Source: a virus
Strand: one strand, 5' to 3'
IMG/VR virus record: IMGVR_UViG_3300036770_007495
Span: 124,001-188,000 of that record
DNA: 64,000 bases
Shown here: positions 1 to 62,812 of the stretch, one piece after another
Numbering within the stretch: the first letter of the stretch is position 1
Layout: each line of letters starts with the position of its first letter
The notes under the pieces: generated by a model
What the model saw: only the letters and a program-made list of their open reading frames with translations
What the model was told of the DNA's origin: nothing
Databases searched by the model: none
Made by a program: the position numbers and the translations under genes

Positions 1-216
1 CATCATTGTGCCTTGAGAATGAGCACGATGTTGTTTGCCATTGCATACAAATGTTACAATGGCACCATCATCTTTGATGTCTGTTGCATGCAACACATTG
101 TGTCCATCATTGCCTGTATCAGCTTTGGCATCAAAAGCGCCAATGTTGTGAACTTCAATGCGCACTGTTGGTGGTATTGCGTGTTTTTCAAAAAAGAACT
201 GCTTGAATGTTTGCAC
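1..216 (-). CDS. Retropepsin-like aspartic protease, partial (runs off the left edge)
   Basis: Only the first 72 codons are in the window; the gene reads leftward off position 1. Starting from GTG at 216, the frame is open throughout. Residues 32-35 read ADTG, followed by a VLHA segment at 41-44. This pattern (hydrophobic-D-T-G then a Leu-His-Ala step) is that of the retropepsin-like clan that includes the RimK-associated putative proteases (PF05618-like). The N-terminus, MQTFKQFFFE, resembles the aromatic leaders of other late genes here and may be a capsid-targeting sequence. The GTG start is chosen because an ATAAATA late promoter lies exactly 5 nt upstream, the spacing shared by most late genes in the window. 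Protease function is inferred from a short motif. Confidence 0.6.
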   Translation of the reverse strand, partial: MQTFKQFFFEKHAIPPTVRIEVHNIGAFDAKADTGNDGHNVLHATDIKDDGAIVTFVCNGKQHRAHSQGTMM

Positions 217-221
217 GCAGT

Positions 222-228
222 TATTTAT
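222..228 (-). promoter_or_regulatory. Late promoter -10 element (ATAAATA) for the protease gene
   Basis: On the minus strand ATAAATA is followed by ACTGC and then the GTG start at 216, a gap of 5 nt. It overlaps the stop codon of the neighbouring gene that ends at 225. Confidence 0.7.
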
Positions 229-1271
229 TTTGCAAATTTGATTTTGTATCCACTAGAATCGTAGCATGCAGAGAAAGTTACATCACATGCTCGCAACTCT
301 TTGAACAATCTGATGCAGCTCCATGCATCATACTCTATGCATGCATTGTTGATGATGAATGCTGTACCAAATGGTGCTGTCTTTTTGCCTGGATGCTTAA
401 ACAATACAAACCAGTCATCTTTTTTGCTGCAAATGTATTCAAGAAGTTGAGCTGCTCCTAAAAAATGCATTGCATCTTCTTTGCATTTGATCAAATTCTC
501 GCAGCAAGCAGCACGAGCCATGCAACCAATGCTGTAAGGCAGCATTGAAAAATCATATGGCACTTCATAAATCTTTGATATTTCAGCAAACTGAAATTCA
601 AACTGCATGGCACTAACTACAGGGCGATCTTTTGCAAACTGATTGATGAATTTTTCAATGTTTGCACGATTGCCAATCCATTTGCTTGATTCTCCAATGC
701 GACCGCCATCGCCTTTCAACTCAATGAGGTTGTTGTTGATCATGATGTCGCCTTTGTCAGCTTTGTATCCACCAGCAAGCAACAACAAAGGCAACTCTGC
801 AGGACCAGAATAGCCACGAGTCTTGCCTTCATCAGAAATGGGACGCATTTTTGTCCACACTTCAGCAGTCAATGCACTTGCTTTAAAATCTGCTTTGTAA
901 TATTCACCCAAGAAATCAACAATGTTGGTTCTTTTGAATGCATTTTCTTGCAGATGCTTCAAGAATAATGGAGCAATTGCATCAGTTGATATCGTTTCCA
1001 ACATCTGCAACACACATTCATTGGATACATCACACAAGTAACCAAACAATTTGTTGAGTTCAGTCAATCTATCAATGACTCTGTTGGCAGCAATGAGCTT
1101 GTTGCTTCTTTTGATTAGATTGTCATTGATAACTTTGAAGCATTTGCCAATTTGTGCATGCTGCTTTTGCAGATCAATGTAATGAACAATTATTTCATCC
1201 CACAAACACCCATCAATAACGTATTCCTTTGCATCATCTGTTGCATCATTTGTTGCTACAACGTTGATCAT
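225..1271 (-). CDS. Putative PD-(D/E)XK-type nuclease-like late protein
   Basis: A 348-residue protein of unknown role. Its middle carries a Glu at about 159 (GPAE), then GDI at 174-176 and IELKG at 183-187 followed by GGR. The E...D...E-x-K spacing matches the catalytic core of the PD-(D/E)XK fold, so a nuclease is plausible but not proven. The N-terminal 120 residues are helix-rich with no recognisable domain. The ATG at 1271 is preferred over an upstream TTG; it lies 5 nt after the stop of the preceding gene, suggesting co-transcription and coupled translation. Its stop overlaps the late promoter of the protease gene. No family name is claimed. Confidence 0.6.
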   Translation of the reverse strand: MINVVATNDATDDAKEYVIDGCLWDEIIVHYIDLQKQHAQIGKCFKVINDNLIKRSNKLIAANRVIDRLTELNKLFGYLCDVSNECVLQMLETISTDAIAPLFLKHLQENAFKRTNIVDFLGEYYKADFKASALTAEVWTKMRPISDEGKTRGYSGPAELPLLLLAGGYKADKGDIMINNNLIELKGDGGRIGESSKWIGNRANIEKFINQFAKDRPVVSAMQFEFQFAEISKIYEVPYDFSMLPYSIGCMARAACCENLIKCKEDAMHFLGAAQLLEYICSKKDDWFVLFKHPGKKTAPFGTAFIINNACIEYDAWSCIRLFKELRACDVTFSACYDSSGYKIKFAK

Positions 1272-1276
1272 GCAAA

Positions 1277-1687
1277 TCAAGGTGCAGTTGACAAATCCTT
1301 GAGTACCGCACTTACTATCTGCTCAACTTGTGCAGGATCTGAGGTGGACAACTGAGAAATTGCAATGTTGATTTGTTTCTCAACATCAGCTGGAATGCTT
1401 GACCTTACTGCTTGAAGTCTGTCACTATCATTGCCTTCAATTGCACCTGCTGTTTGAGCAACAAGTCTAAGCAATTGAATAATGATGGTTCTGAATGTAT
1501 CATAACCGCTCTGAATTTGCTCAGTTGTTTTGTCTGGCTGTTGTGCCATTGCTGCATCAGGTTGAGCAGGAGCTGCTTGTTGATCTTGTGCTGGCGCTTG
1601 CTGCATAGCTACATCAGCAGCTTCATCTTGCTCCATCAAGTAAGTTGCACGAGCTTCTCTAATTACACTGTCAAATATACTTTGCAT
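1277..1687 (-). CDS. Late protein with capsid-targeting-like N-terminus
   Basis: A 136-residue protein. Residues 1-19 end in YLME, fitting the (L/I)-x-E cleavage rule of the T4 gp21 prohead protease. The following QDEA is shared with the protein at 26091-26546 (LLEQDE). An Ala/Gln/Pro-rich linker (about 25-55) precedes a helical C-terminal half. It is read from a CTAAATA late promoter 6 nt upstream. The likely role is a minor head or core protein, inferred only from the promoter and the leader. No homologous family is recognised. Confidence 0.65.
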   Translation of the reverse strand: MQSIFDSVIREARATYLMEQDEAADVAMQQAPAQDQQAAPAQPDAAMAQQPDKTTEQIQSGYDTFRTIIIQLLRLVAQTAGAIEGNDSDRLQAVRSSIPADVEKQINIAISQLSTSDPAQVEQIVSAVLKDLSTAP

Positions 1688-1688
1688 T

Positions 1689-2207
1689 TCAGGTATTTAG
1701 GAGCATGCATTTGGTTTTCAAACAGTTGAAGTAGTTGTTGTTGAGAAAAACCAACTTGTATTTGTCAATGAATCTTGTAGCCTTGTCATAGCTATATTTT
1801 ATCTTGTCACCATTGCTGATTTGCATCAAAAATGATGTGCCTTGATTGTTGCTTATGAGTTTGTTGTAATATTCAATAGGTTTGCTGCTGCAATACCATG
1901 TCAAAGGAAGTTTTTTGGTTGCTTCCATGATGAGTTTGTGAATAAACTCCTTGATTTTACCATTTTCATCATCTGGCACCTGGATGCACTCAGAGCTGTA
2001 ATAGAATACTACTTTGCCTTGTGTTATCCCCATTGCAACATCACAACAATGCTTTATTATGCAATGTGTGAGAACCCTCTTAGCATTAGAATCAAACCGT
2101 TTTATATGATACTGTTGCACCAAATCATTGTATTCAATGAGAATGCATTGCAATAGCTCGCAAAAGTTGCAGATGGTTACATTGTAAAGAGGAAAAGAGT
2201 GCAACAT
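1689..2207 (-). CDS. Hypothetical protein
   Basis: A 172-residue, Cys- and Lys-rich protein that I do not recognise. It starts 1 nt after the stop of the GIY-YIG gene, so the two are probably one transcription unit. Its last codons (LLNT) are encoded by the late promoter of the next gene downstream, so its 3' end doubles as a regulatory element. No signal peptide or membrane segment is evident. Confidence 0.6.
   Translation of the reverse strand: MLHSFPLYNVTICNFCELLQCILIEYNDLVQQYHIKRFDSNAKRVLTHCIIKHCCDVAMGITQGKVVFYYSSECIQVPDDENGKIKEFIHKLIMEATKKLPLTWYCSSKPIEYYNKLISNNQGTSFLMQISNGDKIKYSYDKATRFIDKYKLVFLNNNYFNCLKTKCMLLNT
1694..1700 (-). promoter_or_regulatory. Late promoter -10 element (CTAAATA)
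   Basis: The minus strand reads CTAAATA, then CCTGAA, then the ATG at 1687 (gap 6 nt). The element lies inside the last codons of the upstream gene. Confidence 0.65.
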
Positions 2208-2208
2208 G

Positions 2209-2622: not shown

Positions 2623-2662
2623 CTTATGCAATTAGTTATTCAATTGCAGAATCTAATGCAAC

Positions 2663-2905: not shown

Positions 2906-2916
2906 AATATATCTTA

Positions 2917-2923
2917 TATTTAC
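2917..2923 (-). promoter_or_regulatory. Possible late promoter -10 element (GTAAATA)
   Basis: GTAAATA on the minus strand, 11 nt before the ATG at 2905. The spacing is longer than at other late genes here, so the assignment is weaker. Confidence 0.4.
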
Positions 2924-2927
2924 GCCA

Positions 2928-3326: not shown

Positions 3327-3341
3327 TGCAGCATGCATTAG

Positions 3342-4796: not shown

Positions 4797-4823
4797 CAAC
4801 CCCACACTATACTAACAAACATT

Positions 4824-9353: not shown

Positions 9354-9377
9354 TTTCCATTGATATGCACTTATAGT
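9350..9377 (+). promoter_or_regulatory. Sigma70-like promoter upstream of gp43
   Basis: TTGATT, a 16-nt spacer and TATAGT, ending 8 nt before the gp43 ATG at 9386. The -35 and spacer match the promoter before 52607. The predicted start of transcription is at or next to the start codon. Confidence 0.5.
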
Positions 9378-11952: not shown

Positions 11953-11959
11953 GTAAATT
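11953..11959 (+). promoter_or_regulatory. Variant late promoter element (GTAAATT)
   Basis: GTAAATT, then ACTGC... exactly 5 nt, then ATG at 11965. The 15-mer from GTAAATT to the ATG also occurs before the gene at 26994, which supports a shared regulatory role. Confidence 0.45.
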
Positions 11960-11964: not shown

Positions 11965-12315
11965 ATGAGTCAAAATCTTATCGCAATCAAGAGTCAAGGT
12001 GAAACAGTCATTGGTGAGCTCATCGAGCGCACCGAAACCAGTGTAAAGGTCAAGAATCCAGCAAGCTTGTATATTCAGCCAACGCAGAATGGTCAGCTTA
12101 CTGTGCAGTTGTTCCCAGTATTTTTTGGTGAGTTGCTTGATGCTGTAAAGCGCAGCGAAGGCACCGTCTGGACATACAATGTTGCAGGTGCAGGTGTTGG
12201 TGAAGACATTGCTTTTGATGAAAAGCTTGTTGCTCAATACACCAAGATTTTCAATCCTAGCCCCATCATCACCCCAGAAGGATCTGGCAAGGTTGTGAAG
12301 CTTTTCGATGATTGA
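11965..12315 (+). CDS. Conserved phage hypothetical, possible Sm-like fold
   Basis: 116 residues from the ATG at 11965; an in-frame TTG overlapping the gp43 stop is less likely. The N-terminal half (ETVIGELIE, then VKVKNPASLYIQP) has the alternating pattern of a small beta-barrel, like LSm/Hfq-type proteins found next to gp43 in T4-like marine phages. An RNA-binding role would be inference. It is followed by a strong intrinsic terminator, so gp43 and this gene probably close one transcription unit. Confidence 0.65.
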   Translation: MSQNLIAIKSQGETVIGELIERTETSVKVKNPASLYIQPTQNGQLTVQLFPVFFGELLDAVKRSEGTVWTYNVAGAGVGEDIAFDEKLVAQYTKIFNPSPIITPEGSGKVVKLFDD

Positions 12316-15523: not shown

Positions 15524-15534
15524 TATTTATTTAT
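15524..15534 (-). promoter_or_regulatory. Double late promoter -10 element
   Basis: The minus strand reads ATAAATAAATA, two overlapping ATAAATA copies. The proximal copy is 5 nt before the ATG at 15518. Confidence 0.75.
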
Positions 15535-16286: not shown

Positions 16287-16629
16287 GGAGATATCTGAGA
16301 TGATTCATTGCTCCAATCATCTCATCTCTAATGTTGAGCAAATCAGAATGAGATTGAATGTCTTCAACTTCATTGGTGAGCATTGAAATTGCATTGGTGA
16401 GAATCTTTTCAAGGTCAGTGGTTTCATCCAAATTTCTCAAATCCAGGCTCTGTGCAAATGCAACGCGGCCATAAATGCCCTGATAAGTTTCAACAAATGT
16501 ATCCAACAAATCGCCCAAAGAATCATAGAATTTGCCAAAAGCTTTGTGACGAGCATATGATTTGGTTTGCCAATGATAAATTCTAATCTGAAGTTGCAGA
16601 TAAATGAGCTGAGCAATAATTCTTGACAT
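16273..16629 (-). CDS. DUF5856-type ferritin-like helical protein
   Basis: 118 residues from the ATG at 16629; the longer frame upstream is antisense to the gene at 16640. The segment RIYHWQTKSYARHKA, followed by a Tyr/Asp-rich helix ending ETYQGIYG, is characteristic of the phage DUF5856 family. Its HW motif resembles the first helix of Dps/ferritin-like proteins. A four-helix layout fits the length. It has its own late promoter 5 nt upstream, so it is expressed with virion genes. Iron binding or DNA protection is only a hypothesis. Confidence 0.75.
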   Translation of the reverse strand: MSRIIAQLIYLQLQIRIYHWQTKSYARHKAFGKFYDSLGDLLDTFVETYQGIYGRVAFAQSLDLRNLDETTDLEKILTNAISMLTNEVEDIQSHSDLLNIRDEMIGAMNHLRYLLTLE

Positions 16630-16634: not shown

Positions 16635-16641
16635 TATTTAT
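16635..16641 (-). promoter_or_regulatory. Late promoter -10 element (ATAAATA)
   Basis: The minus strand reads CATAAATA, then CATGT, then the ATG at 16629, a gap of 5 nt. It overlaps the first codon of the divergent gene at 16640. Confidence 0.75.
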
Positions 16642-18990: not shown

Positions 18991-18997
18991 GTAAATA
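18991..18997 (+). promoter_or_regulatory. Late-type -10 element (GTAAATA) before the DHH gene
   Basis: GTAAATA, then CCCAG, then the ATG at 19003, a gap of 5 nt as at virion genes. Unusual for a gene in the replication block. Confidence 0.5.
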
Positions 18998-22251: not shown

Positions 22252-22968
22252 ATGAACCAAATTTGTGTAGATAAGAAAGACTTCTCATCTTTTGTCAAAA
22301 GTCTCGTTAAAATCAACGACTCAGCAATTTTTGCAGTCAGAGAAAATCAAATCACGTGCCTCATTGGATCACCAGACAATGTAACCATTGCATACGGAAC
22401 CTTCAAGTGTGGTACTTCATATGAAGGATGCATCAACATTTCAAGCTTGGTGAAGTTGGGCAAAGCCATTGACCAGATTGGTGAAAATACACCACAACTC
22501 ACTGTCAATGCAAACAATCTTGAATACAAGTCACCTTCTTTGCGATTCAAGTATCATTTGTTGGATCATGGCATCATCAATCAGCCAGCCATCAATGTAA
22601 AGAAAATCAATGAATTTATATTCAACATTGAATTTAGACTTGCTTCTAGCAAGCTCATTGATTTGAGCAAATTCAGTGCATTCAGCACTGACAGCAACAA
22701 AGTGTATTTGTCTTGTGATGGGGAGTCAGTGTTTGCTAACCTGACAGATAGAGCACGCTCCAATGTGGATAACATTGAGTTTGAATTTGCAAAATGTTCA
22801 ACTCCTTTTGATGCTATGCCATTCAATTTGGACTTTTTCCGCAGTCTCAGCTACACAAATGAGAGCAACATCAATGTCAGCATCAATTCTACAAAGCCAG
22901 TTATTGCCATTGATATAGAAAATGAGCGGTATAAATTAAAGTACATCACATCAGCATTTACGTCATGA
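22252..22968 (+). CDS. gp45: gp45-like sliding clamp
   Basis: 238 residues (T4 gp45 is 228). The pattern of a PCNA-like half-clamp is seen: NDSAIFAVRENQITCLIGSP near the start, a KYHLLDHG loop, and KVYLSCDGESVFANLTDRA with a final IDIENERYKLKYI strand. It tethers gp43 and, in T4, activates late transcription with gp33/gp55, so it links replication to the late promoters noted here. The stop overlaps the next gene by 4 nt. The clamp-loader genes gp44/gp62 are not in this window. Confidence 0.85.
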   Translation: MNQICVDKKDFSSFVKSLVKINDSAIFAVRENQITCLIGSPDNVTIAYGTFKCGTSYEGCINISSLVKLGKAIDQIGENTPQLTVNANNLEYKSPSLRFKYHLLDHGIINQPAINVKKINEFIFNIEFRLASSKLIDLSKFSAFSTDSNKVYLSCDGESVFANLTDRARSNVDNIEFEFAKCSTPFDAMPFNLDFFRSLSYTNESNINVSINSTKPVIAIDIENERYKLKYITSAFTS

Positions 22969-23914: not shown

Positions 23915-24776
23915 CGCAAGCAACATCATCCACCGCTCTTTTTGGATGGCCAACAAGAATGCAGGTGATGAGCAAAACAATGGAAGCTTGCATGCATACA
24001 TCTTTTTGCGCTCTCTAAAAAGTTATTGCGACAAGTTCAAGCCAGACAATGTATATTGCGTCTGGGATAAGAAGCTTGAACCCAAAGTGCCAAGCTTTCG
24101 CAAAGTCATTGCTGCAGAGACGTATAAAACCAATCGAGATGCAGAAAAGACCAAAAGTGTCTACACAGACTTTGACATCATTGAGCAATTCGTTAGTGCT
24201 CTTGGGTGCTTTAATGTCTACCCCTTTGCACTTGAGGGGGACGATGTTATTGCATATCTCACTAGAAAGATCAAAGAACCCAAGCTAATCATTAGTGCAG
24301 ATCGTGATTTGCTGCAGCTCATTGATGCAACAACGAGCTATTATGATGTAAACAAAAAAGCCATCATCAATTTGAGCAACTTTGAATCCACTTTTGACAT
24401 TGCATTCAATGACTTTGTCAAATACAAATGCCTCATTGGTGATGCTGCTGACAACATTGCCAAAGTGCTCACACCTGCCAAAGCCAAAAAGGTCATCAAA
24501 GGTGATATGCAACTCACCGAAGAACAACAACAGCAGTTTGAGTTCAATTTTAAGCTGACTGATTTGCACAATTCATATGAACACCAGCCCGGTGAACTGG
24601 AAAAAATGGATGAACAATTTGAGCATATGACTCACAATGGCAGCTTCAAGCTGTTTCAAACCATGTGCAGGCAGCATCAAATGAATGACATCATTGCCAA
24701 AGATCAAGATTGGCAGCAAACTTTCTTCGGGCGCAAAAGCCTATTTAACATTGTAAATATGTTCAAAGACGCCTAA
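23898..24776 (+). CDS. rnh: 5'-3' exonuclease / RNase H (FEN family)
   Basis: 292 residues (T4 RNase H is 305). Metal-binding motifs are IIDASNIIH at the N-terminus, EGDDVIAYL, SADRDLLQL and YKCLIGDAADN. The enzyme removes RNA primers and flaps during lagging-strand synthesis. A helical C-terminal region follows, where T4 RNase H contacts gp32. Last gene of the gp41-gp32-gp45 series before a late gene. Confidence 0.93.
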   Translation: MNLIIDASNIIHRSFWMANKNAGDEQNNGSLHAYIFLRSLKSYCDKFKPDNVYCVWDKKLEPKVPSFRKVIAAETYKTNRDAEKTKSVYTDFDIIEQFVSALGCFNVYPFALEGDDVIAYLTRKIKEPKLIISADRDLLQLIDATTSYYDVNKKAIINLSNFESTFDIAFNDFVKYKCLIGDAADNIAKVLTPAKAKKVIKGDMQLTEEQQQQFEFNFKLTDLHNSYEHQPGELEKMDEQFEHMTHNGSFKLFQTMCRQHQMNDIIAKDQDWQQTFFGRKSLFNIVNMFKDA

Positions 24777-24779
24777 ATA
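24773..24779 (+). promoter_or_regulatory. Late promoter -10 element (CTAAATA)
   Basis: CTAAATA overlapping the stop of the FEN gene, 7 nt before the ATG at 24787. Confidence 0.65.
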
Positions 24780-24975: not shown

Positions 24976-25023
24976 ATCTGATATATCAGTTGATAAAAGG
25001 TAAAAGAGACATTACATTTGGTA

Positions 25024-26551: not shown

Positions 26552-26558
26552 TATTTAT
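26552..26558 (-). promoter_or_regulatory. Late promoter -10 element (ATAAATA)
   Basis: Minus strand ATAAATA, ACTAC, ATG at 26546 (gap 5 nt). Divergent from the CTAAATA element at 26568. Confidence 0.75.
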
Positions 26559-26567: not shown

Positions 26568-26574
26568 CTAAATA
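26568..26574 (+). promoter_or_regulatory. Late promoter -10 element (CTAAATA)
   Basis: CTAAATA, 6 nt, ATG at 26581. Forms a back-to-back late promoter pair with 26552-26558, only 9 nt apart. Confidence 0.7.
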
Positions 26575-26580: not shown

Positions 26581-26985
26581 ATGGATAATAACTTTATGAG
26601 CAATCAGCAACGCAGCTTTGGTCCAGGAGCTGCAAACACAACTGGCCCAGGCAAGGGCCGATCAGGTGCTGATGGTGAGGGCAAAATGGAACCATTGATG
26701 AAAGTTGCTCCAGTCAATGGACCAACTGTGCAGAATAAACCAGTTGCAGAGCAATTGCTTCCACATGAACTCAATCAAATGGTTCAAAAGTTTGGATCTC
26801 TCATTTACACCATCAGCAACATTACAGAAGATCTGCGCAAGTCTCTTGACAACCCAAGCTTGAAAGATCACCAGAAAGTTATCATCATTGCTGTGATTAG
26901 AATTCTCAGACCACTTGGCAAAAAGATATTCAATGCAGGCATGAAGCTGCAAGATGCACTCTTGCCATTTGAGAAAAACAAGTAA
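26581..26985 (+). CDS. Late hypothetical protein
   Basis: 134 residues. A Gly/Ala/Asn-rich, flexible N-terminus (1-50) is followed by a helical domain (LPHELNQMVQKFGSLIYTIS and a second helix with VIIIAVIRILRPLGKKI). Not recognised. A late promoter lies 6 nt upstream, so it is a likely virion protein. Confidence 0.65.
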   Translation: MDNNFMSNQQRSFGPGAANTTGPGKGRSGADGEGKMEPLMKVAPVNGPTVQNKPVAEQLLPHELNQMVQKFGSLIYTISNITEDLRKSLDNPSLKDHQKVIIIAVIRILRPLGKKIFNAGMKLQDALLPFEKNK

Positions 26986-26988
26986 ATT
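26982..26988 (+). promoter_or_regulatory. Variant late promoter element (GTAAATT)
   Basis: GTAAATT, ACTGC, ATG at 26994, gap 5 nt. The sequence from GTAAATT to ATG is identical to that before 11965. Confidence 0.45.
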
Positions 26989-27822: not shown

Positions 27823-27852
27823 TCAAAATTGGAAACGCATTTACATTGTGGA

Positions 27853-33121: not shown

Positions 33122-33129
33122 ACTGCTAT

Positions 33130-34860
33130 TTACGCACCATAGCACTTGATGGCAAACTGCCATTCTGCATCATCAAATGGTGTCTCAACAACAATTTTGA
33201 GGCTGCTTGGTGTTGCATTGCCCTTGGTCATTGCAAGAGTACCAGTCAGTGCAGTTGTTGTAATTGCCGCATAACCCAAAGCTGTCAATGCAGCATTGTA
33301 TGTCTGACTGCCAATGAAGCAAGAGCTGCTGATGTTGGGTCCCCAAATGACGCTAAAGCGTGCAGGAGCCGCAGATGCAGCGCTGTATGTAACACTATAT
33401 GGTCCAGTCTGTGAACCAGCATCAAATGCAAAGTTGTATGTGCCTCTTGCACCAGCACCACGTACAGGAGTATCGCAATATACAAATGGCAATGCAGGGC
33501 AGCTTGGGAAGTAATCGTACTTGACAACAGGTGACTCTGTGATGTAATCAGAATATTTTGTATTCTCATCTGTAACAGAGCTTCCAATGTTCATCCATGC
33601 TGCATCTGCATAATCATTGAGCATTTGATTAACTGTGAATGCACCATATGTGTTGTTAGCAAAATCAGCTGTATCTGTTATGAAATACACATACTTTTTG
33701 TACGTGGTATTATAATCACGCAAGATGGTTGCAGCAAGATACAATGCATCAATGCCGTTTTCTGGTGCTTCTGCACCACCTGCATCACAATAGAAAGCAT
33801 TGCCACCTTTTGCGGCTTCAAGCAAAAATTGCTGTGCATCACTCACTGAATCATTAAATGTAATGACTTGCGGACAAACAATATTTCCAAAAGAGATGAT
33901 GGAAACTTTCTTGACAGCATTGGTGTGTTCTGCAAGCACTTGCAATGCAAATTGTGCGCTTCGTGTTCCCATGCTTGCGGTTTGATCCAAAACAAACACC
34001 AACACAAATGGATCCAAGCAAAGATTTGGGCATGCAACTGCTTCAGGAACTGGTGGCTCAATTGCAGCATATGCACCACCAAGCATGGTTGTTGGCAATG
34101 GCTTCAGCGGAATGGATTGTGGTGATTCAATGGAGAGGTTTTGAATCACTGGAAACTGATAAACAAAAGGAGCAGCAGGAACAGATACAACTGGTACTGC
34201 ATCAAATCCTTCAACATGAAAGTTTTTGATGGCAAATTTTGCTGCTGGTGCATTGCCGCACAATGGTGCAGCATATGAAACACCCACTTTGTAAAAAGAT
34301 GATGTTGCAACATTAAGTGATACTGGATAATCAAGCAGCACTTTGTATGCATCACCATCAAAGCGCGCTATTTCTATGAACGAGCCTGCACTATGAAGAC
34401 GAAACCTAAGAGTCTCATATGCAAGTGCAGAGCTCATGAGAGCATAGGAGGAATCCAGTGCAGACAATGCAATGGTGGTAAGATATACAAAGGTGGATCC
34501 TGTTCTGATGGTTAGTGAAGCAACATTGTTGGCTGCAACACCTGTATCCTTGCCATTACCTGATGCTGCAAACAACCCATGTGTATCAAATCCAATGCCC
34601 AAGACACCACCACTCAATCCAGAGATGGAAGCAAATGCATTGTATCCAGAACTTGGCGCATATCCAAGTGATGCGCCAATTCCGCCTCCTGTTAGTGTCG
34701 CAACAGCTGCATCATACAAGAACGTGCAAAAGCCGCCTTGTGCATTGTTGGCACCGCACAAAGCATACTGCAATGACCAAACAATGTCTTGATATGCATT
34801 GAAAGGTTCATCATGAGCAATGCTTGCTGCAAAAGCAGAGTTGGATATTTGTGTTGGCAT
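33130..34860 (-). CDS. Virion adhesin with lectin-like and von Willebrand A domains
   Basis: 576 residues. The N-terminal region (about 20-200) has a concanavalin-like pattern (GGFCTFLYDA, GGGIGASLGYAP, LGIGFDTHG). A Pro-rich linker follows, then a vWA domain from about 284 with LVFVLDQTASMG, a DxTxS form of the MIDAS metal site (Asp292, Thr294, Ser296), and YFITDTADF. A C-terminal beta-rich domain of about 100 residues ends the protein. It starts 3 nt after the RCC1 fibre gene stop. A receptor-binding role is inferred from position and domains. Confidence 0.78.
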   Translation of the reverse strand: MPTQISNSAFAASIAHDEPFNAYQDIVWSLQYALCGANNAQGGFCTFLYDAAVATLTGGGIGASLGYAPSSGYNAFASISGLSGGVLGIGFDTHGLFAASGNGKDTGVAANNVASLTIRTGSTFVYLTTIALSALDSSYALMSSALAYETLRFRLHSAGSFIEIARFDGDAYKVLLDYPVSLNVATSSFYKVGVSYAAPLCGNAPAAKFAIKNFHVEGFDAVPVVSVPAAPFVYQFPVIQNLSIESPQSIPLKPLPTTMLGGAYAAIEPPVPEAVACPNLCLDPFVLVFVLDQTASMGTRSAQFALQVLAEHTNAVKKVSIISFGNIVCPQVITFNDSVSDAQQFLLEAAKGGNAFYCDAGGAEAPENGIDALYLAATILRDYNTTYKKYVYFITDTADFANNTYGAFTVNQMLNDYADAAWMNIGSSVTDENTKYSDYITESPVVKYDYFPSCPALPFVYCDTPVRGAGARGTYNFAFDAGSQTGPYSVTYSAASAAPARFSVIWGPNISSSCFIGSQTYNAALTALGYAAITTTALTGTLAMTKGNATPSSLKIVVETPFDDAEWQFAIKCYGA

Positions 34861-34863
34861 TGA

Positions 34864-37440
34864 TTAGAGCTGTACAAGTGTAGGTACGAGAACGTTTGCA
34901 ATGGATGTCGGCAAACCACATTGTCCATTTGTATTTTTCCCCCATGCATACAAGTCTTTCTGTATTACACTGTCAGTGATTGCATAAACTGTTTTGTTTG
35001 ATGCATAACCAATTACAATGAAATCATCAAACTTGTTGCGCTGAATTTTTACTGCTTTGGTTTTTGTTGTTGTAGCAGCAGTTGTTGTACCATCGCCTGC
35101 AGCACCATCTGTATTAACACCACCAACACTGTACAATTCACCTGCTGTGGTGAGCATAAACAGTGTATCTGTGTGGTATTGAATTTTTTTGATGCCAGTA
35201 AATGGTGCAAGTGGCACTTTAGGAATAGTTCTATCAGTTGTTGTACCGTCTCCCAACTGATAAGCTCCGTTTTCACCCCATGTAACAATGTTGTTGCCAG
35301 TTAGTCGTGCAGCTATGCTTAGCAAGTTAGTACTGTCAGCATTGATTGTGAGAGCTACAACACCTGACAATTGAAAAGCACCAGATACACTTGAAACAGG
35401 CTTGAATACGGTTTGATCTGCTACAGCATTGTTGCCAAGAGCACCACTATTAAAGCTGCCTACGCTCCACAAATAATTTTTATCATCTGTAGTGACATAT
35501 GCATTAGAATTAGTCGTATACCCGCCAGCATATACATTGTTTACAGTTGATATGTTTGCTGATACCTTGTAGAAGATAGTTCTATTTGACTTGTTGGTCA
35601 AGCCAAGATTACCATTTTGATTGTTGCCTGCAGCATGCAATTCATCATTTTCATCAATTACAAATGCAAATTGAGTTGCTGCAGAGTTGCTAGTTGTTAC
35701 CTTTTTAACTTTGAGTGCACTCAAGCTTGAATAGTTTCCATCTTGAATGTAAATTGTTTCATTTATTTTTACTGGGGTTGTTTGATCTGTAGTTGAGCCA
35801 ATTCCAAGACACCCACTAGAGCCTTCACCCCAACCGTACAAATTGCCTGCATCAGTAATTGCAAACATACATACTTCTGGTACTGCATCTGAAGCATTTG
35901 TATATGATCCTGCAATTTGTGTTACCTTCTCATAATTAAAATACAGAGGATTAATTTGTTTGAAAGTGTTGTTAACAGTTGTTGCACCTGCACCTAGCAG
36001 ACCTACGGAACTTTTACCAGCTGTATATACATTACCTTCACTTGTTAAAAGTGCAGAGAAATTACCAATGGAGTATGCACTAATTGCATATTCATTAGCA
36101 CTAAATCCAACAGCAATGGAGAAGAAAAATGGTACATCCACATTGTTGCTGCCATAGCCAATTGCTGATCCATATGTTGCAGTGTCTGAATTACCTGCGC
36201 CTCTAACATTGTTTGCAGCATCCAAAACAAATCCATGTTTGTAACACACCATGGTTGTACCTGTATTTAGAGTAGGAATAATGATGCGGCTTGCAAATCT
36301 TGGATTTTGTGACTGTAGTACATCTACTGTTGCACTCAAGCTGCTGATTTGAGAATCAACAGCTGTTTTGCTGATGTAATCATTGATGCCCAATTGATAT
36401 TGAATTCCTTGATTTGGGAAAACTAAATTTGTAGTTGATGTATCAGTTGTTACATTGTATGCTGTAAGGGCAACATTGTCTACAGTTACAGTTGAAGGTT
36501 CAAAAATTACATCTTGCAGATACTTGATGATGTAAACAAAATTTGATGCAGTGAGCAAAGGAACATTGAAGTTTGTTCCTGTGCCACCATAATACTGGCC
36601 AATGGCTGCACACAGTGCTGAATAAACTGTACCATCTTTTGTAGAACCATCACACAAGAAATAGCCATGAGGTACTGTGGTTGAAGTTGCATTGAAATTG
36701 CCGCCTGATCCATATGGCACAATGCTGCCCACTGGAACCTGATTGCTGCTCAACACCATGTATTGAGTTTGATAAGTTCCAGGAGTTGCAAACACAAGAT
36801 TGCCAAAGCTGTCAGTTGTCAAGACAGATCCTGCAGCACCATCAAATGCGGGCATGTTGAATACTGCTGCACCACCAGCTGCACCAAACTGAATTGCTTG
36901 TGACAATTGCAAAAATGCATTGTTGCGAGGTGTAATTTGATCAAACTGTTGATTTGCAGTTGTTTGAAGCTCACGCGCACCAACAAATTCTAATCCTAAT
37001 CCTGCAAGTTCAGTGTCAAGTTGCGCTGCACTCACAGTCTTGACACTCATGACACCAGTTGTTGCATTCAACTGCAATGTCTCATCATCAACTCTGTTGG
37101 CAAGAGGTCCAGAGAAAAGTGTCCAATTGCCAGCGGTGCTGTATGGCTTTGCTGCAAGGCGATAAATGCCACCAGCAATGCTGTCATATGCTACATCACC
37201 TGCTTCTGCTTCTGCAGCCCATGTGCTTGGATGCCCTGTTCCAAAATAAAGAAACAAAGATGTTGGAAGTGCACCAGTTGTTACACCATCACCAACAAAA
37301 AGTCTGCGAGTATCAACAGTGTAGCCCAGTTCTCCTTCAGAGAGTACAACATTTGTACGTTCAGTATTAGAGCCGCGACGAATAAGCAGCTTTAAAAGTG
37401 TATTTTCTGTGATTTCAATTCTACCAGCACTATTGCTCAT
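34864..37440 (-). CDS. Tail fibre with Mtd-N, collar and RCC1 beta-propeller domains
   Basis: 858 residues. Residues 18-60 (LLIRRGSNTERTNVVLSEG, then LGYTVDTRRLFVGDG) form an Mtd-N-like domain. A tail-collar domain follows at about 235-310 (VPVGSIVPYGSG ... GYFLCDGS). From about 455 to the end there are seven RCC1-type repeats, each with a W/V-G-x-N/G...G.LG core, e.g. LYGWGEGSSGCLG, IVTWGENGAYQLG and LYAWGKNTNGQCG, enough for a complete seven-bladed propeller. A late promoter lies 5 nt upstream. The propeller is probably the receptor-binding tip. Confidence 0.85.
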   Translation of the reverse strand: MSNSAGRIEITENTLLKLLIRRGSNTERTNVVLSEGELGYTVDTRRLFVGDGVTTGALPTSLFLYFGTGHPSTWAAEAEAGDVAYDSIAGGIYRLAAKPYSTAGNWTLFSGPLANRVDDETLQLNATTGVMSVKTVSAAQLDTELAGLGLEFVGARELQTTANQQFDQITPRNNAFLQLSQAIQFGAAGGAAVFNMPAFDGAAGSVLTTDSFGNLVFATPGTYQTQYMVLSSNQVPVGSIVPYGSGGNFNATSTTVPHGYFLCDGSTKDGTVYSALCAAIGQYYGGTGTNFNVPLLTASNFVYIIKYLQDVIFEPSTVTVDNVALTAYNVTTDTSTTNLVFPNQGIQYQLGINDYISKTAVDSQISSLSATVDVLQSQNPRFASRIIIPTLNTGTTMVCYKHGFVLDAANNVRGAGNSDTATYGSAIGYGSNNVDVPFFFSIAVGFSANEYAISAYSIGNFSALLTSEGNVYTAGKSSVGLLGAGATTVNNTFKQINPLYFNYEKVTQIAGSYTNASDAVPEVCMFAITDAGNLYGWGEGSSGCLGIGSTTDQTTPVKINETIYIQDGNYSSLSALKVKKVTTSNSAATQFAFVIDENDELHAAGNNQNGNLGLTNKSNRTIFYKVSANISTVNNVYAGGYTTNSNAYVTTDDKNYLWSVGSFNSGALGNNAVADQTVFKPVSSVSGAFQLSGVVALTINADSTNLLSIAARLTGNNIVTWGENGAYQLGDGTTTDRTIPKVPLAPFTGIKKIQYHTDTLFMLTTAGELYSVGGVNTDGAAGDGTTTAATTTKTKAVKIQRNKFDDFIVIGYASNKTVYAITDSVIQKDLYAWGKNTNGQCGLPTSIANVLVPTLVQL

Positions 37441-37445: not shown

Positions 37446-37452
37446 TATTTAG
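37446..37452 (-). promoter_or_regulatory. Late promoter -10 element (CTAAATA)
   Basis: Minus strand CTAAATA, TAAGC, ATG at 37440 (gap 5 nt). It overlaps the 3' end of the upstream fibre gene. Confidence 0.75.
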
Positions 37453-39902: not shown

Positions 39903-39909
39903 TATTTAT
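39903..39909 (-). promoter_or_regulatory. Late promoter -10 element (ATAAATA)
   Basis: Minus strand ATAAATA, 7 nt, ATG at 39895. Confidence 0.68.
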
Positions 39910-41807: not shown

Positions 41808-41814
41808 TATTTAC
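41808..41814 (-). promoter_or_regulatory. Late promoter -10 element (GTAAATA) before a GTG start
   Basis: Minus strand GTAAATA, TTCAT, GTG at 41802 (gap 5 nt). It overlaps the stop region of the upstream gene. Confidence 0.7.
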
Positions 41815-45745: not shown

Positions 45746-45752
45746 TATTTAA
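45746..45752 (-). promoter_or_regulatory. Late promoter -10 element (TTAAATA)
   Basis: Minus strand TTAAATA, CTCAT, ATG at 45740 (gap 5 nt). Confidence 0.75.
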
Positions 45753-46723: not shown

Positions 46724-46730
46724 TATTTAT
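46724..46730 (-). promoter_or_regulatory. Late promoter -10 element (ATAAATA)
   Basis: Minus strand CATAAATA, CACAT, ATG at 46718 (gap 5 nt). Confidence 0.78.
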
Positions 46731-50359: not shown

Positions 50360-50366
50360 TATTTAA
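50360..50366 (-). promoter_or_regulatory. Late promoter -10 element (TTAAATA)
   Basis: Minus strand TTAAATA, 6 nt, ATG at 50353. Confidence 0.65.
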
Positions 50367-50860: not shown

Positions 50861-50867
50861 TATTTAA
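50861..50867 (-). promoter_or_regulatory. Late promoter -10 element (TTAAATA)
   Basis: Minus strand TTAAATA, GCATT, ATG at 50855 (gap 5 nt). It overlaps the stop of the upstream gene. Confidence 0.72.
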
Positions 50868-53800: not shown

Positions 53801-54355
53801 TCAGTCAAAGATTGATTTGCCAGGAGTGAGCTTGCTGTTGACTTTCATGCTGCCTTTGCTCATGAGAGTCTTGCCCTTGTCACCAAGTGCCTTTGGTTCT
53901 GCTTCAAGATCAACGTTAACAGAGGCATCAGCCTTGCCGCCAGTCTTGCCTGTTACAGTACCGCCCACTTTCATCTTGCCCTTGCCCATGAGATCATGGC
54001 CTTTGTTGCCAATTGGCTTTGGAGAAGGCTCAACTACAACGCTTTCTGGAAATGCTCCTTCATCTTCGTCTTCATCATCCATCATCTCATCACCGAGATC
54101 AGCGCCAAGATCTTCTGCGCCCAATTCTTCATCGGTCATTTCATCTTCCATGCCGCCTTCAAGCTGGCCCATGAGTGCATCATGAAGCTTCTGTGCAAGT
54201 TCACGTGGAAGAGAAATTGTGATTTCTGTTTCATCACCCATGTCATCAGAAACATCAACATCAAGAGCTTCAAGGTCTTGGTTTTCAGTATCCATGTCAG
54301 ATGGGTTGTCCATCACTTCTTCGTAGAGAGTATCAAAAAGAGATTTTTGTGTCAT
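53801..54355 (-). CDS. Nested shorter product of the same frame (internal late start)
   Basis: 184 residues sharing the stop of the 54607 gene. Its own CTAAATA lies 5 nt upstream inside the coding sequence, where it reads ALNTG. The product starts with a capsid-targeting-like leader. Whether it, the long form, or both are made is not known. Confidence 0.6.
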   Translation of the reverse strand: MTQKSLFDTLYEEVMDNPSDMDTENQDLEALDVDVSDDMGDETEITISLPRELAQKLHDALMGQLEGGMEDEMTDEELGAEDLGADLGDEMMDDEDEDEGAFPESVVVEPSPKPIGNKGHDLMGKGKMKVGGTVTGKTGGKADASVNVDLEAEPKALGDKGKTLMSKGSMKVNSKLTPGKSIFD

Positions 54356-54607
54356 ACCGGTATTTAGGGCCACTGCCTGTGCTTTTTCAACTCCTAAAGA
54401 AAATTTTTGAGGCTCAAACAAATTATTTTTCTTGCCCTTCTTGGAGTCCAGTGCTGGTACAAAGCCTGAAGCATTGGCAGGGCCACCTTTTTTGTCCATG
54501 TCCATGATTTCAGCGCCCATGGTTGGCTTTTTAATTTTCATTGTTGGCAGTGGCTTGCCGCCTTTGCCGCCTTTGAGTTTGATTTTGACTGTAGATTTGC
54601 GTTGCAT
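53801..54607 (-). CDS. Acidic late protein with nested in-frame late start
   Basis: 268 residues from the ATG at 54607. Residues 1-84 are basic and Gly/Lys-rich (KIKLKGGKGGKPLP). A second in-frame ATG at 54355 begins MTQKSLFDTLYEEV, whose LYE at 10-12 of the short form looks like a prohead-protease site. The C-terminal region is very acidic with a helix near 150 and three basic Gly/Lys repeats of the type GNKGHDLMGKGKMKV / GDKGKTLMSKGSMKV. Both starts have a CTAAATA late element at 5 nt. A head-core or scaffold-like role is possible; no family is recognised. Confidence 0.7.
   Translation of the reverse strand: MQRKSTVKIKLKGGKGGKPLPTMKIKKPTMGAEIMDMDKKGGPANASGFVPALDSKKGKKNNLFEPQKFSLGVEKAQAVALNTGMTQKSLFDTLYEEVMDNPSDMDTENQDLEALDVDVSDDMGDETEITISLPRELAQKLHDALMGQLEGGMEDEMTDEELGAEDLGADLGDEMMDDEDEDEGAFPESVVVEPSPKPIGNKGHDLMGKGKMKVGGTVTGKTGGKADASVNVDLEAEPKALGDKGKTLMSKGSMKVNSKLTPGKSIFD
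54361..54367 (-). promoter_or_regulatory. Late promoter -10 element inside the coding frame
   Basis: Minus strand CTAAATA, CCGGT, ATG at 54355 (gap 5 nt). Confidence 0.68.
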
Positions 54608-54612
54608 AGCAT

Positions 54613-54619
54613 TATTTAG
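54613..54619 (-). promoter_or_regulatory. Late promoter -10 element (CTAAATA)
   Basis: Minus strand CTAAATA, ATGCT, ATG at 54607 (gap 5 nt). Divergent from the terminase promoter 8 nt away. Confidence 0.75.
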
Positions 54620-54626
54620 GGCTGCA

Positions 54627-54633
54627 ATAAATA
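54627..54633 (+). promoter_or_regulatory. Late promoter -10 element (ATAAATA) for gp17
   Basis: ATAAATA, 8 nt, ATG at 54642. The longer spacing than elsewhere still leaves little room for a leader. Confidence 0.65.
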
Positions 54634-54641
54634 AAAGCACT

Positions 54642-56360
54642 ATGGCAAATAAAAAAGGTGACTATTATCTCAACAATCCTGCGCTGCCTACCAGCAGGGC
54701 AGAGTTTGAGTATACACCAGAAATGTTGAAGGACATCAAAAAATGCGAGCAGAACTTGCTATTTTTTGCTGAAAACTATTTTTACATCATTGATCCAGAT
54801 GAGGGCAGAACCATCATCAAGCTCTACAAGTATCAAAAAGATGCTTTGAGAATGCTGCGAGACAACAGATACAATTTGTTGCTTGCAAGTCGACAAATTG
54901 GTAAAACCACATTGCTGACCATTTATGCACTGTGGATTGCATGTTTCAATGAAGATCAAAACATCATGATTGTGGCTAACAAAGAGAGCACAGCCATTGA
55001 AATCTTCCGAAGAGTGCGTCTAGCATATGAGCAATTGCCCAACTGGCTCAAGCCTGGTGTTGATGAATATGGCAAGACTAGTATGACGCTCAACAATGGT
55101 TCCAGAATTGGTATTTCCACAACAACAGGCAGTGCTGCTCGTGGTACTTCCTTGAATGTATTGATTCTTGATGAGTTGGCTTTCATTGATCCACCTTCCA
55201 TCATGGAAGATTTCTGGCGTTCTGTGTGGCCTACCATTTCTCGCTCTAAAAAATCCAAAGTTCTCATTGCATCCACTCCCAAAGGCACAGACAACTTGTT
55301 TTATCAATTGTATGATGGCTCAGTAAAAGGTGAAAATGGCTTTGCCAGCATGACCATCAAATGGGATGCTGTGCCAGGGCGTGATGAAAAGTGGAAAAAA
55401 GAACAAATCAAGCAAATTGGCAGCGTTGAATCATTCCTCCAAGAATATGAATGTGAATTTTTGCAGAGCGGTGAATCTTCCATTGACGTAGAAACATTTG
55501 AACGCCTCAAGCAAAATTGTTCCATTGCACCCTATTCTTTGGATGATGGCAAGTATATGATTTGGCAGCAGCCCAAAGCAGATAGATTATACATTGTGGG
55601 TGTTGACGTTGCTGAAGGTGTGGGTCAGAACTATTCTGTTGCACAAATTCTCGACATAACTGATTTGACCAACATTGAACAAGTTGCTGTGTATCGAGAC
55701 AATGTAATTGCACCTGCTCAATTCACAACAAAACTGTTTGAGATATTGCAGCAGTGGGGTAATCCATTGGTGCTCATTGAAAGAAACAATTGCGGTGCTC
55801 AAGTTGTTGACAATTTGCGCAACATTCATCAGTATGAGAACATTGTGAGCTATGGTGCTGAACTAGCAGGTCGCAAAAAAGACTTTTTGGGTGTTGTTGC
55901 TCATACCAACACCAAGCAGCGAGGTGTTCTCAACATGAGATATTGGGTGAATGTGCTCAATTGTGTTCGTTTCAATCACATGCAGACCATCATCGAGCTC
56001 AAAGACTTTGTGCGCAAAGCCAATGGCACATGGAGTGCACGAGGCAATGGCACAGATGACTGCGTCATGAGCCTCATTTGGGCACTTGTTGTTTTGGACA
56101 ATGATCCACAGTTTGGCATTTGCAGCCAATATTTTGAAGTTGTTGACTTGGATGAAAACAGCAAACCAAGAAGCATCAAGCCCATGGATTATGGCCTCAA
56201 ATATTTTACAGCCAACAACAAAAAATTTGATATGTTTGGCAACATGCTAGAGGCATCTAAATATGAAGATGCAGCTACTTTGCCAATTCTGTTTGGTTCT
56301 GCTGGTCAACAAAATGAAGATTTAGCTGACTTAGAATTGCAAGGCTGGAAAATTTTATGA
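54642..56360 (+). CDS. gp17: gp17-like terminase large subunit
   Basis: 572 residues (T4 gp17 is 610). Walker A SRQIGKTT at 83-90, Walker B LILDELAFID and the C-terminal RNase H-like nuclease with GVDVAEGVGQNYS and NGTDDCVMSL. It pumps DNA into proheads and cuts concatemers. The true start is the ATG at 54642; the frame upstream is antisense to the gene at 54607. The stop overlaps the next gene by 4 nt. A gp16 small subunit is not recognised in the window. Confidence 0.97.
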   Translation: MANKKGDYYLNNPALPTSRAEFEYTPEMLKDIKKCEQNLLFFAENYFYIIDPDEGRTIIKLYKYQKDALRMLRDNRYNLLLASRQIGKTTLLTIYALWIACFNEDQNIMIVANKESTAIEIFRRVRLAYEQLPNWLKPGVDEYGKTSMTLNNGSRIGISTTTGSAARGTSLNVLILDELAFIDPPSIMEDFWRSVWPTISRSKKSKVLIASTPKGTDNLFYQLYDGSVKGENGFASMTIKWDAVPGRDEKWKKEQIKQIGSVESFLQEYECEFLQSGESSIDVETFERLKQNCSIAPYSLDDGKYMIWQQPKADRLYIVGVDVAEGVGQNYSVAQILDITDLTNIEQVAVYRDNVIAPAQFTTKLFEILQQWGNPLVLIERNNCGAQVVDNLRNIHQYENIVSYGAELAGRKKDFLGVVAHTNTKQRGVLNMRYWVNVLNCVRFNHMQTIIELKDFVRKANGTWSARGNGTDDCVMSLIWALVVLDNDPQFGICSQYFEVVDLDENSKPRSIKPMDYGLKYFTANNKKFDMFGNMLEASKYEDAATLPILFGSAGQQNEDLADLELQGWKIL

Positions 56361-56953: not shown

Positions 56954-56960
56954 ATAAATA
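56954..56960 (+). promoter_or_regulatory. Late promoter -10 element (ATAAATA) for gp18
   Basis: CATAAATA, TCTAC, ATG at 56966 (gap 5 nt). Confidence 0.82.
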
Positions 56961-59608: not shown

Positions 59609-59625
59609 GACACAAAAACAAAGAG

Positions 59626-59654: not shown

Positions 59655-59663
59655 GTTTAAACC

Positions 59664-59670
59664 ATAAATA
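59664..59670 (+). promoter_or_regulatory. Late promoter -10 element (ATAAATA)
   Basis: ATAAATA, CTAAC, ATG at 59676 (gap 5 nt). Confidence 0.8.
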
Positions 59671-59675
59671 CTAAC

Positions 59676-60170: not shown

Positions 60171-60186
60171 TGCATTTGCATAATTT

Positions 60187-60627
60187 ATGGCTCACAAAGA
60201 GTTTAAACAAGGCGTTTACAAGCCCATCAACAGGCAGAAATACATTGGTGATAAACTGCCTTTTTATAGATCAGGTTATGAGCTAAAATTCATGCGATGG
60301 GCTGATGCTAACCCCAATGTTTTGAAGTGGGGAAGTGAAAGCATCATTGTCCCTTACAAGAGCCCCATTGATGGTAAAATGCATCGCTATTTTGTAGATA
60401 ATGTGGTCATCATCAAAGAAGGAGAAAACATCAAAAAATATCTCATTGAGATCAAACCACACAAACAAACACAGCCGCCAACTGCTCATGGCAACAAAAA
60501 ACAGACCACCATTTTGTATGAGCAAGCTACATATGTCATCAATCAAGCCAAATGGGAAGCAGCAAAGAAGTGGTGCAAAGATCATGAATGGGAGTTTCTC
60601 ATCTTAACAGAGAAGCATTTGCCATAA
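60187..60627 (+). CDS. gp4: gp4-like head completion protein (nuclease fold)
   Basis: 146 residues (T4 gp4 is 150). KYIGDKLPFYRSGYELKFM, PNVLKWGSESIIVPYKSPID, GKMHRYFVDN and LIEIKPHKQ are diagnostic of gp4, which shares the TnsA/PD-(D/E)XK fold with Glu, Asp and E-x-K in order. It is needed to complete DNA-filled heads. No late promoter at the usual spacing; the start is 17 nt after the previous stop. Confidence 0.92.
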   Translation: MAHKEFKQGVYKPINRQKYIGDKLPFYRSGYELKFMRWADANPNVLKWGSESIIVPYKSPIDGKMHRYFVDNVVIIKEGENIKKYLIEIKPHKQTQPPTAHGNKKQTTILYEQATYVINQAKWEAAKKWCKDHEWEFLILTEKHLP

Positions 60628-60630
60628 ATA
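60624..60630 (+). promoter_or_regulatory. Late promoter -10 element (ATAAATA) for the lysozyme gene
   Basis: ATAAATA, CTATG, ATG at 60636. The first ATG of the ATGATG pair is 2 nt away and the second 5 nt; the second fits the pattern. It overlaps the gp4 stop. Confidence 0.75.
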
Positions 60631-60635
60631 CTATG

Positions 60636-61523: not shown

Positions 61524-61532
61524 CGGTGAACA

Positions 61533-61539
61533 ATAAATA
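61533..61539 (+). promoter_or_regulatory. Late promoter -10 element (ATAAATA)
   Basis: ATAAATA, CTCAT, ATG at 61545 (gap 5 nt). Confidence 0.8.
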
Positions 61540-61544
61540 CTCAT

Positions 61545-62093
61545 ATGGCACAGACAAATCAAACCATTGGAAACTTTTATGACCGCGCAGTAGCTCGTGA
61601 ATTCTCACGCGACTTCTTGTTTCGAGTTCTGAACATCACTTTTGCAGGCGGTGCTGTCTTCAATGAAGATGAGCTTGTTTATGCAAAAACAGCAAAACTA
61701 CCTGCTCGTCAAATTACCAACGTGCAGAGCAAGTACATGGGTCTCAACTTCAACTTAGCTGGCACAGCTGTATATCCAGGCAGCGACAGCTATGCAATTT
61801 CTTTTTATTGTGATGCCAATTCTTTGCTGAGAAACAAATTTTTGCAGGAATCTCGTCGTGTGTTCGATGATGCAACCAGCACAGGTGATTACAACATTGC
61901 TGGTCGTGCAAGTTCCATCACTTTGTTGCAGCTTGACAAGGCATTGGAACCAGTTTCCACATTCCGTCTTGTGGGTGCCAACATCAAAAACGTGGGTGAA
62001 ATTCAATACAACATGGCAGATGGCACTGGTCAGCCTGTTAATTTTGATGCTACCATCTCTTATCACTTCTTTGAAGAGAACGCACCAGCCTAA
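61545..62093 (+). CDS. Tail tube/baseplate tube-initiator family protein
   Basis: 182 residues (T4 gp19 is 163). SRDFLFRVLNITFAGGA, LVYAKTAKLPARQITN, MGLNFNLAGTAVYPGS and YAISFYCDANSLLRN follow the tube-protein fold. It could be the major tube protein gp19 or a gp48/gp54-like initiator; its neighbours (baseplate hub-like genes) favour a baseplate role. It has its own late promoter, consistent with high expression. Confidence 0.78.
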   Translation: MAQTNQTIGNFYDRAVAREFSRDFLFRVLNITFAGGAVFNEDELVYAKTAKLPARQITNVQSKYMGLNFNLAGTAVYPGSDSYAISFYCDANSLLRNKFLQESRRVFDDATSTGDYNIAGRASSITLLQLDKALEPVSTFRLVGANIKNVGEIQYNMADGTGQPVNFDATISYHFFEENAPA

Positions 62094-62099
62094 TAAATA
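62093..62099 (+). promoter_or_regulatory. Late promoter -10 element (ATAAATA) before a GTG start
   Basis: ATAAATA, GTTAG, GTG at 62105 (gap 5 nt). It overlaps the stop of the upstream gene. Confidence 0.75.
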
Positions 62100-62104
62100 G
62101 TTAG

Positions 62105-62812
62105 GTGCCACAGTCACCACGAGAAACCTATTTAGCACTCCTAGACAGATGGGAGTATAATCTTGCACTCAATTCTCAGTGGGTGCTCATCATTCACGAT
62201 TTGCCCCGCATTCAAGGCATTGTGAGAAAAGTACAGCCTCTAGAAGCATGGACACCCAACTCAGATTGGAACATCAATGAAGTCATCTACGAAAAACTCA
62301 CCAACGAGCAGGTGCAAACAACAGAAGCCATGGGATGCTTCTTTGTCAACAATGTTGTTGTGCCTGGTGAAGCATACAATCAAGAAGAAGCTACCATTTC
62401 CAACAGTGGTGGTTACATCAATGTGGGTGTAGCAGGCAAGAGAACATCTTTTTCTGGCAAACGAGTAGCAACATCATTCAGAGAAACCAATTTAGACTTT
62501 GTTGAGACAGTGCTGCGCCCATGGGTCATTGCATGTTCACACATTGGCTTCTTTGCTTTTCAGTCAGCTGCAGACAATGTTAAGATTCCTAGAATGCAGC
62601 TCATCAATTTTTCACGCCTCAAGCATACTCCTGTGTCACCTTATGATTCTGAAACATTCAGACCCATCAGAAAAATCTACAACTTCTACAATGTAGCACC
62701 CATTGAGATTGATACCAAGACATACGATTACACTGAAGACCAAGGAACACCGCAAATGAGACAAGTGGGCTGGATTTTTGACAATTACAGCATACAATAC
62801 TCTAGACAATGA
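62105..62812 (+). CDS. Baseplate tube-like protein (gp48/gp54-type candidate)
   Basis: 235 residues, GTG start supported by the promoter spacing. WEYNLALNSQWVLIIHDLP near the N-terminus and FRETNLDFVETVLRPWVIAC, KIPRMQLINFSRL and IRKIYNFYNVAPI resemble tube-fold baseplate proteins that cap or start the tube. It lies between another tube-fold gene and hub-like genes. The stop overlaps the next gene (ATGA). Identity as gp48 or gp54 is not settled. Confidence 0.65.
   Translation: MPQSPRETYLALLDRWEYNLALNSQWVLIIHDLPRIQGIVRKVQPLEAWTPNSDWNINEVIYEKLTNEQVQTTEAMGCFFVNNVVVPGEAYNQEEATISNSGGYINVGVAGKRTSFSGKRVATSFRETNLDFVETVLRPWVIACSHIGFFAFQSAADNVKIPRMQLINFSRLKHTPVSPYDSETFRPIRKIYNFYNVAPIEIDTKTYDYTEDQGTPQMRQVGWIFDNYSIQYSRQ

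Follow-up and report, generated by a model that had tools for sequence, protein, structure and literature searches.

Late transcription of bacteriophage T4 is textbook knowledge, and in well-studied phages leaderless translation generally counts as an exception. The T4 late promoters (TATAAATA) are associated with gp55, gp33 and gp45, and their box spans positions -13 to -6 relative to +1 (PMC1524935). Near T4 genes such boxes mostly lie at least 12 nucleotides (nt) upstream, and not a single called gene has TAAATA at a gap of 4-8 nt, the gap being the number of nucleotides between the end of the promoter element and the start codon. We here discuss a different placement of the same box. It was seen in a 64,000-nt stretch (the window), i.e., bases 124001-188000 of the 224,703-base virus record IMGVR_UViG_3300036770_007495 (the whole record being G000), where TAAATA typically ends 5 nt before the start codon of late genes.

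The closest cellular precedent is found in Deinococcus-Thermus. The genes with a "-10 region adjacent to ORF" of these bacteria have a -10-type element a few bp from the open reading frame (ORF), leaderless mRNA and a spacing requirement (PMC12340547). Their motif, however, is TANNNT and the setting is cellular, whereas the phage combines a late sigma box with host-type early promoters; the main text of that article does not mention phages. Single leaderless phage mRNAs, such as that of lambda cI, likewise start at AUG (PMC9031893), but these are isolated cases, while a genome-wide rule is indicated here. A cultured pelagiphage, HTVC008M (KC465899, L085-L088), comes nearer: ten of its genes have TAAATA, mostly as TAAATAG, exactly 5 nt before ATG, and nine of the ten have a pyrimidine at -1. 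Yet 46% of its genes have a Shine-Dalgarno (SD) motif, so that leaderlessness can extend to part of its genes at most. In a published survey, late promoters of pelagimyophages were sought without success (PMC7029224). Far-T4 phages, compared by description only, have a longer capsid protein, and T4 transcription-regulation core genes were not detected in them (PMC4360716); the present record has a gp55 homologue and a capsid gene of 491 amino acids. In the open literature, which we covered incompletely, we met with no description of leaderless genes being the rule in a T4-like phage.

The original prediction listed 26 NTAAATA/T elements directly before genes on both strands of the window. When the upstream sequence of every listed start was extracted, all elements proved exact (TAAATT at 11965 and 26994, TAAATA at the others), and so did their gaps: 5 nt in 19 cases, 6 in three, 7 in two, and 8 and 11 in one each. 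The gap-11 box, before 2905, is a weak case. The start at 54355 does not open a gene of its own; it shares the frame of 54607 and is an internal start. One box had been missed, that of gene 33121(-). The boxes precede the genes for sheath, tube, terminase, tail fibre and endolysin, and the window also encodes a gp55 homologue (Table 1). Box sequence and placement before late structural genes resemble T4.

The enrichment is extreme. In the window TAAAT[A/T] stands 5 nt ahead of 20 ORF-opening ATG or GTG codons, as against 0.8 on average elsewhere upstream. If every hexamer/offset pair before the 2644 ORF starts of the whole record is ranked, TAAATA at gap 5 comes first, with 41 occurrences versus 0.78 expected (Poisson log10 p about -54). 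The word TAAATA-N5-ATG, controlled with its reversed pattern, was counted 42 versus 5 times in G000 and was as prominent in relatives: 42 versus 4 in G001 (204 kb), 28 versus 1 in G002 (a fragment of 116 kb), 72 versus 5 in G008 (IMGVR_UViG_3300043464_001630, 236 kb) and 34 versus 2 in G009 (87 kb). Loci within one lineage are kin, and such counts are not independent events. The word is near control level in KVP40, S-PM2, Syn9, P-SSM2, XG4, Cr30, phiM9 and phiM12, and T4 has a slight excess only (10 versus 5). Chance due to AT-richness is ruled out by these tests, and so is a general property of T4-like phages, as T4, KVP40, cyanophages, phiM9 and Cr30 lack it. The distance of 5 nt is the mode, but it is not as fixed as had been claimed: a crude set of 280 genes has 41 at gap 5, 16 at gap 6, seven at gap 7 and three at gap 8. 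In the genome and its relatives the distances show a sharp excess at gap 5, gaps are kept between orthologues, and gaps of 6-8 nt are common too.

The TAA of TAAATA is also the stop codon of the upstream gene in 10 of the 58 box genes of the record and in 18 of 71 in G001. This sharing packs stop, promoter and next start codon into 14 bp. As the source of the fixed distance it was rejected, since it concerns so few boxes and the first genes of divergent units are boxed as well. In the record-wide hexamer table ATGCAC and TGAGTG are also found repeatedly ahead of ORF starts, their offsets differing by 18 nt, which suggests a short tandem repeat.

Where would transcription start? Given the T4 geometry, +1 would coincide with the first letter of the start codon at a gap of 5 nt. 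Of 35 gap-5 genes, 30 have C or T at -1, and none has A. An independent sign comes from genes in which the AUG lies 7-12 nt from the box: 28 of these 41 retain an A as the sixth base past the box (p 2e-6), mostly preceded by C or T. The same holds for relatives of 36-45% identity with gaps of 9-12 nt (A in 19/24, p 3e-6). A purine at this position is shared with T4, where 26 of the 32 TATAAATA sites have it. Because the pyrimidine-A at the fifth and sixth base persists where the AUG lies further downstream, the initiator tracks the box, not the AUG. Judged from the sequences compared, it is the start codon that is placed onto a box-bound initiator in this lineage. Orthologue pairs of G000 and G001 keep their gap (5/5 in 20 pairs, 6/6 in 11, 7/7 in three and 8/8 in two), although the letters of the spacer differ. 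The predicted coincidence of +1 and start codon thus gains support from T4 geometry, from an initiator that does not depend on the AUG, from gap conservation and from the absence of SD motifs.

This absence is not confined to late genes. Scored 5-16 nt before the starts, SD-like motifs were found in 4% of the genes of G000 (control 2%), 3% in G001 and 1% in G002. The want of SD had been claimed for the late genes; it holds, near background, for the entire genome. By comparison, T4 has 55%, KVP40 45%, S-PM2 36%, phiM9 58% and Cr30 51%, the range for T4-like phages other than T4 being 28-58%. RNA structure at the 5' end proved uninformative as an explanation, weak structure being common to all genes.

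A "leaderless late regulon", as originally proposed, therefore fits the late genes but is too narrow in scope, since sigma70-type early promoters are placed alike. Promoters of the host type (TTGA-N16-18-TATAAT) are present in the early region (record 7-50 kb), e.g., TTGACT-N17-TATAAT-GAATGC-ATG at record 12898. In an ORF-based test the gaps from -10 to start peak at 5-7 nt in G000 (17), G001 (18) and G002 (8), a peak not seen in T4 or most other T4-like phages. A -10-like hexamer precedes 38 non-box genes of G000 at gaps 5-8 and no more than two at any single gap outside this range; in T4 none occurs at gaps 5-8. Early genes, too, look leaderless in the three genomes tested. Altogether a promoter occupies the leaderless position in 108 of 255 genes, versus 18 at a shifted control, and 75 further genes overlap a co-oriented upstream gene or lie within 10 nt of it. 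An overlap of exactly 4 nt is seen in 28 non-box neighbours. Such overlaps and abutments inside operons are arranged as for translational coupling. Two side observations concern the early promoters and genes: G001 (L068, L059) has five near-identical early promoters, TTAAAAT-CTTGAACATCT...TTATATTGAA-N4-ATGAAT, ahead of different small ORFs, and an ECF-like second phage sigma factor is encoded in the early region of the record (L006:14454-15035; record 34454-35038, +; TIGR02937 E 4e-13).

With a probability of roughly 0.86, we consider the record to represent an uncultured T4-like lineage in which T4-type late promoters are fused to start codons and late as well as early mRNAs are leaderless. 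The gp55-directed RNA polymerase would recognise TAAATA and start at the sixth base downstream. In most late genes the start codon begins with this very base, A or G, which would yield a leaderless mRNA; gaps of 6-8 nt would leave a leader of 1-3 nt. Early genes would use host sigma70-type promoters in the same placement. Ribosomes would initiate on the 5'-terminal AUG without SD contact, and translation of genes inside operons would be coupled to that of the gene before them. Unlike T4, this phage would have its start codons at +1.

Other explanations have to be considered. The box might be a real late promoter while most late mRNA arises by upstream read-through, its proximity to the AUG reflecting mainly an AT-rich, SD-independent translation signal, for instance for ribosomal protein S1. 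The genome-wide lack of SD and the weakly structured 5' ends of all genes, as expected of a non-SD host, would agree with such a signal, and the boxes that double as stop codons leave room for read-through. However, a sigma-specific hexamer is not what a translation signal requires. Other points against this explanation are that the element differs by gene class (TAAATA in late genes, TATAAT plus -35 in early ones) at the same phase, that the initiator is bound to the box and not to the AUG, and that boxes stand before the first genes of divergent units. We regard this explanation as improbable. That only the late regulon is leaderless and early genes are ordinary is very improbable, although the signal of the late genes is stronger and exact TATAAT-N6-ATG is not enriched in every relative: the sigma70 gap peak, the -10-like hexamers at gaps 5-8 and the lack of SD in early genes all speak against it.

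Misassigned start codons, with true starts downstream behind normal leaders and SD motifs, hardly deserve credence. The starts are indeed computer-called, and those at 16629, 54355 and 60636 lie inside longer ORFs. But the N-terminus of the tail sheath, M-A-R-x-I-x-S-P-G, is conserved from the assigned start in relatives with gaps of 5, 6, 9 and 10 nt, orthologous starts agree, and an SD signal is missing genome-wide. Some findings nevertheless weigh against leaderless messages as the general rule. The gene caller was a crude one. Gaps of 6-8 nt are frequent, and some mRNAs may thus have a leader of 1-3 nt. No gp33 was found, though the search from a KVP40 query recovers little beyond T4. The exact word TATAAT-N6-ATG is clearly enriched in G000 only (10 versus 0), not in G001, G002, G008 or G009, so that early leaderlessness in the relatives rests on the looser ORF-based test. 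Finally, some 60 called genes lack both a promoter at the leaderless position and a close upstream neighbour; some are false calls, others may have weaker promoters or leaders.

The relatives were sorted by bands of similarity. Among the matches listed, 48 loci with a capsid about 70-92% identical have 213 genes at gap 5 and SD motifs in 7% against a background of 7%. The lineage must be large, since the capsid scan gave at least 599 stretches. Annotated phage capsids reach about 34% identity at best, hence no cultured member is present in the collections searched. DNA polymerase relatives of more than 50% identity share the trait, whereas those of about 31% have ordinary SD motifs (27-76%) and no gap-5 peak; L203 (42%) is too short and was left out of this comparison. 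In more distant relatives, compared by their sheath (36-45%), the gaps are 5-6 and 9-10 nt and SD motifs are scarce, 15% versus 8%. On this evidence the trait is the mark of a lineage, and the distant relatives with gaps of 9-10 nt, like HTVC008M, have the look of intermediates. In search of the host, genome contigs were scanned for the capsid, with no match. Chthoniobacteraceae were dismissed: a lone 41% sugar-methyltransferase match in one bin is not host evidence.

The record encodes about 24 tRNAs. One of them, a tRNA-Met(CAT) in a cluster of 23 tRNA genes (L008:7163-7236; record 67163-67236, +), is likely a phage-encoded initiator tRNA, because its anticodon arm GGG-CTCATAA-CCC and the apparently unpaired position 1:72, as we read the fold, are hallmarks of initiators. 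A surplus of initiator tRNA strongly favours leaderless mRNAs, as reviewed (PMC9031893). No exact copy of this arm turned up among the other loci examined, and hence it is not shown to be a trait of the lineage. Ribosomal protein S21 was searched for in vain, and a formyltransferase-like protein was rejected as Met-tRNA formyltransferase, being PurN-like. The record further encodes a small RF-1-domain protein with a GGQ motif, of the release factor or ribosome-rescue type (L013:12997-13392; record ~220897-221292, -). A tmRNA call by ARAGORN (L007:18613-19056) has an odd tag peptide (GAEQCMLLNQTLG) and is possibly false. The features of the window are compiled in Table 1. At 54601-54645 two divergent late boxes, for 54607(-) and the terminase at 54642(+), overlap within about 35 bp.

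Table 1. Promoter elements and transcription-related genes, in window coordinates
Feature	Position	Strand	Remarks
Late box TAAATA	222..227	-	gap 5 to GTG 216(-)
Late box	1694..1699	-	gap 6 to ATG 1687(-)
Box, weak case	2917..2922	-	gap 11 to ATG 2905(-)
Late box TAAATT	11954..11959	+	gap 5 to ATG 11965(+)
Late box	15524..15529	-	gap 5 to ATG 15518(-); G001 and G002 orthologues gap 5
Late box	16635..16640	-	gap 5 to ATG 16629(-); G002 orthologue gap 5, G001 gap 6
Late box	18992..18997	+	gap 5 to ATG 19003(+), DHH phosphoesterase
Late box	24774..24779	+	gap 7 (predicted 2-nt leader) to ATG 24787(+)
Late box	26552..26557	-	gap 5 to ATG 26546(-); divergent from box 26569..26574
Late box	26569..26574	+	gap 6 to ATG 26581(+)
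Late box TAAATT	26983..26988	+	gap 5 to ATG 26994(+)
Late box	33127..33132	-	gap 5 to ATG 33121(-); G001 orthologue gap 5
Late box	37446..37451	-	gap 5 to ATG 37440(-), RCC1-like/tail protein
Late box	39903..39908	-	gap 7 to ATG 39895(-), tail-fibre-like
Late box	41808..41813	-	gap 5 to GTG 41802(-); G001 and G002 gap 5
Late box	45746..45751	-	gap 5 to ATG 45740(-)
Late box	46724..46729	-	gap 5 to ATG 46718(-), tail collar fibre
Late box	50360..50365	-	gap 6 to ATG 50353(-)
Late box	50861..50866	-	gap 5 to ATG 50855(-)
Late box	54361..54366	-	gap 5 to ATG 54355(-), internal in-frame start of ORF from 54607
Late box	54613..54618	-	gap 5 to ATG 54607(-); divergent promoter overlapping that at 54628-54633
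Late box	54628..54633	+	gap 8 (predicted leader ACT) to ATG 54642(+), terminase large subunit
Late box	56955..56960	+	gap 5 to ATG 56966(+), tail sheath
Late box	59665..59670	+	gap 5 to ATG 59676(+)
Late box	60625..60630	+	gap 5 to ATG 60636(+), endolysin/tail lysozyme; G001 and G002 gap 5
Late box	61534..61539	+	gap 5 to ATG 61545(+), tail tube
Late box	62094..62099	+	gap 5 to GTG 62105(+)
Sigma70-type -10 TATAGT	9372..9377	+	gap 8 to ATG 9386(+), DNA polymerase
Sigma70-type -10 TACATT, -35 TTGATA	25013..25018	+	gap 5 to ATG 25024(+)
Sigma70-type -10 TACATT, -35 TTGATC	27842..27847	+	gap 5 to ATG 27853(+)
Late sigma factor, T4 gp55 homologue, 160 amino acids	4824..5306	+	phrog_234 E 1e-25
Probable sliding clamp, gp45-like	22252..22968	+	iterative hidden Markov model; PCNA clamps (PDB) weak, E ~0.07

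A more far-reaching view, which we hold to be rather doubtful, is that a widespread uncultured T4-like lineage has wholly abandoned SD initiation in favour of start-codon-fused promoters for all temporal classes and coupled operons; some members, the present phage among them, would add an initiator tRNA that might bias host ribosomes to phage messages. If the leaderless arrangement is real, the annotation of genes and promoters in such phages would change, as start calling and promoter searches presume leaders and SD motifs. Each genome would offer about 100 leaderless genes on which ribosomal initiation at a 5' AUG could be tested. The hosts, in turn, would be constrained to those that translate leaderless mRNA well.

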